From the NCBI RefSeq assembly GCF_900172295.1, contig NZ_FWFL01000001.1:310001-374000 (forward strand): DNA of 64,000 nucleotides, in the 5' to 3' direction. The translations under genes were made by a program, and so were the position numbers. The notes beneath the pieces are model-generated. The model saw only the letters and a list, made by a program, of their open reading frames with translations. It searched no databases and was not told the origin of the DNA. Numbering within the stretch: position 1 is the first letter of the stretch; every line of letters starts with the position of its first letter. Origin of the DNA: Roseovarius litorisediminis (GTDB lineage Bacteria > Pseudomonadota > Alphaproteobacteria > Rhodobacterales > Rhodobacteraceae). This document shows, piece by piece, positions 62,405 to 64,000 of this stretch.

Positions 62405-63550
62405 TTAACGGCCTTTCCAGATCCAGCCACCGCCGAGGATGCGGCTGCCCTCGGTTTCGTAAAACACGCAGGCCTGTCCCGGGCTGATACCTTCTTCGGC
62501 GGTCAGCAGCTCCACTTCGGCCTCGGTGTCAGAGAGCGGCCGGATGATCGCGGTGCGCGGGGGCCGGGTAGAGCGGACCTTGACCGAGATTTCCCATTCC
62601 GGGCGTGAGGCAAGGGCCTCGTCCCCCAGCCAGTTGATCTCGCGCACCGGAATGGTGCGGGTGGACAGCATGCTTTTGGGGCCGACGATAACCTGTTTGG
62701 TGTCGACGTCGAGTTTGACAACATAAAGCGGGTCTTCCAGCCCTCCGATGCCCAGACCGCGGCGTTGGCCGATGGTGTAGTGGATCACACCGTTATGTTC
62801 GCCCAGAACACGCCCATCGGTATCGACGATCTGGCCAGGTTCGGCCGCGCCAGGGCGCAGCTTTTCGATCACGCTGGCGTAGTTGCCGTTCGGCACAAAG
62901 CAGATGTCCTGGCTGTCGGGCTTGTCCGCGACGGACAGCCCATATTTCGCCGCCAGTTCGCGGGTCGCATCCTTGGAGGGAAGGTGGCCCAGCGGGAAGC
63001 GCAGATAATCCAGTTGCTCAGGCGTGGTGGAAAACAGAAAATACGACTGGTCGCGGTTGGCGTCAGCTGCGCAATGCAGCTCGGGGCCGTTTTCCCCTAT
63101 CTTGCGTTGGATATAATGGCCGGTCGCCATGCAGTCGGCCTCAAGATCGCGGGCTGTTTCCAGCAGGTCCTTGAATTTCACCCGCTCATTGCAGCGGATA
63201 CAGGGCACGGGTGTGGCACCGGCCAGATAGCTGTCGGCAAATTCGTCGATCACGGCGTCTTTGAAGATATTTTCGTAATCCAGCACGTAATGCGGAAAGC
63301 CCATATCTTCGGCCACACGGCGGGCATCGTGGATGTCGATACCTGCACAACAGGCGCCTTTTTTGGCCAAAGCTGCCCCGTGGTCATATAGCTGCAGGGT
63401 GACCCCGACCACATCATAGCCTTCCTCGGCCAGTTTTGCGGCAACGACCGAACTGTCAACGCCACCAGACATGGCCACGACAACGCGGGTGTCGGCCGGG
63501 GGTTTTGCAAATCCCAGCGAGTTCAGTCTGGTGTCGTTGTCCAGTGCCAT
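62405..63550 (-). CDS. mnmA: tRNA-specific 2-thiouridylase MnmA
   Basis: A 381-residue PP-loop enzyme that makes 2-thiouridine at tRNA position 34. The motif is [15 protein letters not shown]. Catalytic cysteines lie in [11 protein letters not shown] and DICFVPNG. The C-terminal region has [10 protein letters not shown] and [10 protein letters not shown]. It converges on the MATE gene and is divergent from sciP. Confidence 0.96.
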
Positions 63551-63770
63551 CGTGGCCTCCGGTCGGGTGGTTGTGTAAGATCTGGCCTATGGCCGTTTGA
63601 CAGAGCGCCTGCAATACATCCGTTTTGGCCGCTCCCGCAAGGGGCGGATCGGGCCTGTAGGGTCAGGTCGTTACGAATATAGGAAAATCCGAAATACTCT
63701 CAAGGTCCCGCTTCACCCGTCGTTAAGCGGTGAAACCGCATTCTGTCGGCGATTACGAGAGGGTGAGAGA

Positions 63771-64000
63771 ATGTATCTGAAGAAAGTGGATTGACCAAGA
63801 GCGGTCAAATTACCTGACGGGCAAATCATGACAGTGGCCGATCTGCCACCGGCCGATACACGCCGGTGGGTCGCGTCGCGTAAATTAAAGGTTGTGCGAG
63901 GGGTCGTGTATGGGCTGATCACCCAGGGCGATGCGGAGGCGAGATATAACATAAGCAAAGAGGAATTTAATTTTTGGGTGAAAGCAGTTAGCCACTTTGG
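63771..64000 (+). CDS. sciP: SciP/DUF1153 family CtrA regulator, TGA at codon 8, cut by window end
   Basis: From ATG 63771 the frame reads MYLKKVD-stop-PRAVKLPDG and continues without further stops to the window edge: ADLPPADTRRWVASRKLKVVRGVVYGLI and YNISKEEFNFWVKAV. This is the SciP HTH protein that inhibits CtrA-dependent transcription in Alphaproteobacteria. The TGA (63792-63794) replaces a codon that I recall as conserved Gly (GGA would be one base away). An in-frame ATG at 63828 (codon 20) could restart. The GAGGGTGAGAGA just before 63771 supports the first start. It may be a pseudogene, a truncated protein or a sequence error. Confidence 0.75.

Follow-up and report, generated by a model that had tools for sequence, protein, structure and literature searches.

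The only sciP gene found in this Roseovarius-type rhodobacterial genome is interrupted by an in-frame TGA at its eighth codon, and the most likely account, to which we give a probability of about 70%, is that a single base change recently created this nonsense allele. The TGA lies at 63792-63794 of the window, the 64,000-nucleotide stretch of DNA that was analysed, in a gene of the DUF1153/SciP family. The first-pass annotation had located it correctly, reading MYLKKVD, the stop, PRAVKLPDGQI and an ATG at 63828. The window ends within sciP, and the remainder of the gene was taken from locus L002 on the same contig. There the frame runs open to ALKATALKTYRQP (ending ALKTYRQP) and a normal stop at about 64047-64049, outside the window, giving 92 codons in total; the earlier statement that the frame is intact apart from the TGA is thereby borne out. 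A second intact sciP, which the same annotation had suggested looking for, was not found: the whole-genome search (39 contigs, completeness 100, contamination 0.23) returned a single match, and a second copy was rejected.

Table 1. Features in and around the interrupted sciP gene (window coordinates).
Feature	Position	Strand	Basis
mnmA (tRNA 2-thiouridine synthase), upstream neighbor	62405..63550	-	Pfam; NCBIfam NF001138, 429.6 bits, cut-off 284
Ribosome-binding stretch GAGAGGGTGAG before the first ATG	63757..63767	+	Pairing with the 16S tail, 17 bases 63751-63767
sciP codons 1-7, MYLKKVD, up to the early stop	63771..63791	+	Resembles MYLKKVD/E of relatives
TGA, codon 8, next base C	63792..63794	+	Gly codon in 98/100 relatives' loci
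sciP codons 9-19, PRAVKLPDGQI, in frame, protein-like, no ATG, GTG or TTG	63795..63827	+	Frame, conservation
sciP from codon 20 (ATG), DUF1153 core, possible 73-aa restart product	63828..64000, on to ~64049	+	Pfam PF06627, L002 frame

The identification of the gene as sciP was right. Pfam DUF1153 (PF06627) scores 76 bits (cut-off 23.5) over the stretch that begins at codon 20 and reaches the window end, and the match of profile A1 spans positions 1-92 with one TGA inside. The NCBI SciP model NF051866 aligned over profile positions 20-75 of 90 and gave 74.9 bits against a whole-protein cut-off of 100; the input was a cut piece of 57 residues from codon 20, for which a score below 100 may be expectable. 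Downstream, sciP is followed by ctrA, ligA and recG (NCBIfam NF045991, NF005932 and NF008164, all above cut-off), with ctrA directly adjacent (426.6 bits, cut-off 350). In the 105 loci of the conservation comparison, too, sciP is followed by a CtrA-like frame. SciP (PF06627; NF051866) is the CtrA antagonist of Caulobacter, where it represses CtrA-activated promoters (PMC4287350, in part). The window gene likewise has the Pfam match, a helical core and ctrA downstream, but differs from Caulobacter SciP in its stop at codon 8, and its role here is putative. The available portions of PMC11999139, PMC7200025, PMC9437464 and PMC4287350 contain nothing on SciP function in Rhodobacterales, and those of PMC7200025 and PMC9437464 nothing on SciP N-termini. 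In the collection searched, no literature on DUF1153 was found, nor any that treats SciP, CtrA, cryo-EM and RNA polymerase together; the one paper there that joins SciP and CtrA with pseudogenes in Alphaproteobacteria concerns Wolbachia.

Structure prediction separates a flexible N-terminus from a compact core. With the TGA read as Trp, the 76 residues within the window were modeled by AlphaFold2 at pLDDT 87.2, residues 1-10 at 65, with strands at 11-13 and 19-21 followed by three helices. The piece from codon 20 onward (57 residues within the window) reached 90.6 and has three helices but no strands, so that a restart product is predicted to lose the tail and the hairpin and to keep the core. 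The top solved fold matches of the read-through model are the NMR structures 2jrt (Rhodobacter sphaeroides RHOS4_12090; E 2.2e-8, 60% identity) and 2oa4 (SiR5; E 2.6e-7, 64% identity). These models indicate that the window gene probably encodes the SciP fold. The two solved proteins belong to other species and are not known as interrupted, whereas the window gene is.

Glycine is the usual residue at codon 8, as the first-pass annotation had supposed. The codons in 101 distinct loci, window included, are GGG (49), GGC (24), GGT (16), GGA (9), AGA (1), ACT (1) and TGA (1); Arg and Thr thus occupy the two relatives' loci without Gly, and a stop occurs in none of the 100. Within the genus a sciP match is present in 82 of 84 genomes, including all 72 of good quality; the two lacking one have completeness values of 66% and 85%. 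A script screened the DNA of every one of the 82 for lesions, meaning either a stop in frame ahead of residue 75 or the lack of a start codon at frame position 1. Three genomes carry one (the window genome, G017 and G455), all within codons 1-8, and none was seen in codons 9-75. The remaining 79 of 82 are free of lesions, which agrees with the earlier view that sciP is normally intact. One locus flagged as broken in the screen, L192, was dropped as an unlike helix-turn-helix gene (score 76).

In a family sample of one genome per genus, sciP was found in 144 of 154 genomes, and none of the 143 others that have it showed a lesion. In this sample the DNA was read for rows with an internal stop or a best match beginning beyond position 1 (19 other relatives, namely 16 genomes, G198 among them for its short match, plus G122, G126 and G186) and the remainder were judged by the table alone; the G198 gene is cut by a contig end. 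Family counts refer to this sample of 154, a search of 394 family genomes, with only best-scoring matches listed, being left out; the genus searches around G310 and G237 covered 1 and 4 genomes only. Four of the 144 genomes (loci L251-L254) have DUF1153 genes that keep the core but begin, by eye, with 20 residues bearing no resemblance to the customary MYLKK...LPDG, so that an N-terminal lesion cannot be judged in these four. Within the genus, the loci L021 (G035), L023 (G006), L025 (G024) and L029 (G019) end at a natural stop a few codons ahead of the usual YRQP end, which appears as TGA or TAA within the profile match.

Conservation of the codons flanking the stop is close to that in intact relatives, which suggests that the stop is either recent or a consensus error. 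Similarity to relatives over codons 21-88 is 0.668 against 0.667 expected from CtrA distance in the closest bin and 0.653 against 0.666 in the next. Codons 1-19 reach 0.737, where the closest bin gives 0.783 as the expectation, the stop itself being one of the 19 positions, or about 0.05. For codons 2-7 and 9-19, dN against five relatives is 0.07, 0.07, 0.08, 0.13 and 0.20; dS is 2.0 for one relative and saturated for four. The terminal branch of the window is long in both genes (sciP 0.28 against a median of 0.16; ctrA 0.17 against 0.08), which indicates a long lineage and not merely a faster sciP. We conclude that translation of the tail either continued into recent times or goes on today, unless the stop is an error. 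An old, decayed pseudogene was rejected, since the gene has no further lesion and normal conservation; a young pseudogene would be indistinguishable by these lesion and constraint tests.

Codon usage and the retention of the gene in the genus count against a recent nonsense allele. The codon-usage score is low, at -0.31 for codons 9-19, like that off frame, and 0.06 for codons 9-76, where the long ORFs of the window have a 5th percentile of 0.004 and a median of 0.21; such scores are erratic for short stretches. The retention of sciP in every good-quality genome of the genus, moreover, implies that its loss should carry a cost.

That retention, together with surroundings of the stop conserved much as in intact relatives, also fits a sequencing or assembly consensus error over an intact gene in the cell, which ranks next after the nonsense allele and is a distinctly less probable reading. 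Against it stands the good quality of the genome described above. A codon-usage scan of the window, which requires 40 open codons on either side of a stop and is blind to frameshifts and to lesions near gene ends, the sciP stop included, flagged five stops between coding-like stretches; by eye all five look like gene boundaries or shadow frames, which also argues against error. Substitutions are rare in short-read consensus, which would count the same way if such reads were used here. When the window was aligned to its relative G014, two pieces only could be aligned, the mnmA and sciP regions.

A more doubtful possibility is that the first sciP codons are expendable in Roseovarius-type bacteria, having been broken in three lineages while the core is conserved and a functional short SciP arises by restart at codon 20. 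The two other lesions resemble that of the window in lying early in a gene that is otherwise intact and has an ATG at codon 20, but they (codons 4-6) are changes in the length of an A-run, whereas the window lesion is a stop. In G455 (Roseovarius amoyensis, L040/L153) the run at codons 4-5 is one A shorter than usual, causing a frameshift. Its run reads AAAAAG, a kind known from -1 ribosomal slippage, and the gene has two ATGs at codons 19-20. In G017 (L009/L139/L154), an assembly of about 280 contigs, a run of seven A in place of the six of its neighbor L012 shifts the frame at codons 4-6, and the remainder is intact. A-runs are a hot spot for both mutation and sequencing error. In a midpoint-rooted tree of ctrA from 82 distinct loci the common ancestor of the three lesion genomes holds all tips and their nearest neighbors differ, indicating that the three lesions are not one inherited event. 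With lesions spread evenly over codons 1-75, the chance that all three fall in codons 1-19 is (19/75) cubed, about 0.016 by hand arithmetic for a region picked post hoc. G017 and L012 differ at 3 of 14 positions in codons 6-19 and at 2 of 68 in codons 21-88. Such a difference does not prove that constraint is relaxed, because 100 of 298 other close pairs (pairs differing at no more than 14 places in codons 21-88) also have at least three differences in codons 6-19. The three early lesions thus hint that the N-terminal tail is expendable; three cases, two of them in A-runs, fall short of showing it. If it were true, tail and hairpin would carry a separable, optional function of SciP.

The translation signals favor the first ATG. 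As claimed in the first-pass annotation, a good ribosome site precedes ATG 63771: its pairing energy with the 16S tail is -8.7 kcal/mol, a value reached by 2.5% of the 1149 ATGs of the window. The restart it proposed at ATG 63828 is sustained in part, in that the ATG exists in frame and a ribosome site does not; the pairing there is -2.5 kcal/mol, below mean strength (-3.1) and reached by 60% of the ATGs. Codon 20 is ATG in 64 of 101 loci (window included), TTG in 8, GTG in none and a non-start codon in 29, so that selection for a start at this place is not apparent, and a conserved internal start was rejected. Both the missing ribosome site and the variable codon 20 count against the nonsense-allele reading with its restart.

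It is very improbable that ATG 63828 is the native start and that codons 1-19 went untranslated in this lineage, a reading that overlaps with the restart branch of the nonsense allele. The ATG is in frame, the core is predicted to fold without residues 1-19, and the unlike N-termini of L251-L254 would suit it. The strong ribosome site, however, sits at 63771, and codons 2-7 and 9-19 are conserved as protein, which a long-untranslated stretch would lose.

Equally slight is the prospect of programmed UGA read-through or recoding (selenocysteine, suppressor tRNA or a leaky context) that gives a regulated full-length SciP. The frame and the N-terminal codons are kept on either side of the stop, and a C after UGA makes for a leaky context. 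According to the available part of PMC11126739, UGA leaks more than the other stop codons in E. coli, its background misreading, mostly as Trp, depends on context and growth, and signal was obtained from a reporter in which TGA stood in place of a glycine codon. Against recoding, none of the 100 relatives' loci shares the TGA, and the machinery was not found. No selA was found in the genome by a search that gave an above-cut-off match in one of 14 control genomes, and the nine selB matches all fell below the cut-off of 242 bits (best 96). The one tRNA-Sec candidate above cut-off among ten matches (47.2 against 47) is a tRNA-Leu with anticodon taa. No UCA anticodon is present among the 41 tRNAs found, a number made up of a list of 40, without tRNA-Tyr, and the tRNA-Tyr (anticodon gta) recovered by the tRNA-Sec search. 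The single tRNA-Trp found, its sequence read by hand, has a 5-bp anticodon stem, A9 and G24 and thus none of the three tRNA-Trp features that the available text of PMC13092985 ties to UGA reading. RF2 is intact, with 508 bits against a cut-off of 370 and no internal stop, which likewise counts against recoding, and TGA terminates 21 of the 36 long ORFs of the window, which points to the standard code. Selenocysteine insertion, a suppressor tRNA and an altered code were therefore rejected, and nothing supports programmed recoding.

A perfect 6-bp inverted repeat, TTGACC-N6-GGTCAA, occupies window positions 63791-63808, its left arm including the TGA. The window contains 185 repeats of 6 bp with loops of 3-10; the stem over the stop was taken as chance and not as a signal, and its commonness is a further point against recoding.

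Under the preferred reading, that of a recent nonsense allele, translation would start at ATG 63771, with its strong ribosome site, and end after seven codons, and full-length SciP would drop to a small fraction. A ribosome stopping at codon 8 could restart at ATG 63828, 33 bases downstream, at a low rate, and translational coupling from the upstream stop could enable this. Some ribosomes may in this way produce a 73-residue SciP that would lack the flexible tail and the first hairpin strand but retain the three-helix core. Early nonsense alleles of E. coli lacI, an example of downstream restart, are similar in having a stop in the first codons and an in-frame start shortly after it; in the window the restart ATG has no ribosome site, and the short product is putative. 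The available part of PMC5972666 presents no bacterial restart case. Ordinary UGA misreading, mostly as Trp, may contribute a trace of full-length SciP. The earlier proposal of a shortened protein or read-through therefore names two possible but unproven outcomes, one dependent on an ATG without a ribosome site and the other on read-through machinery that was not found. The cell is perhaps null for SciP, or has the short form, or a trace of the full-length protein, and CtrA targets in this strain would be braked weakly or not at all.

A working short form would separate the tail from the DNA-binding core; otherwise the sciP stop would be an ordinary lesion of a single genome. If the stop is real, the CtrA network of this natural strain has a damaged brake, and the strain would be useful for understanding the role of SciP outside Caulobacter.
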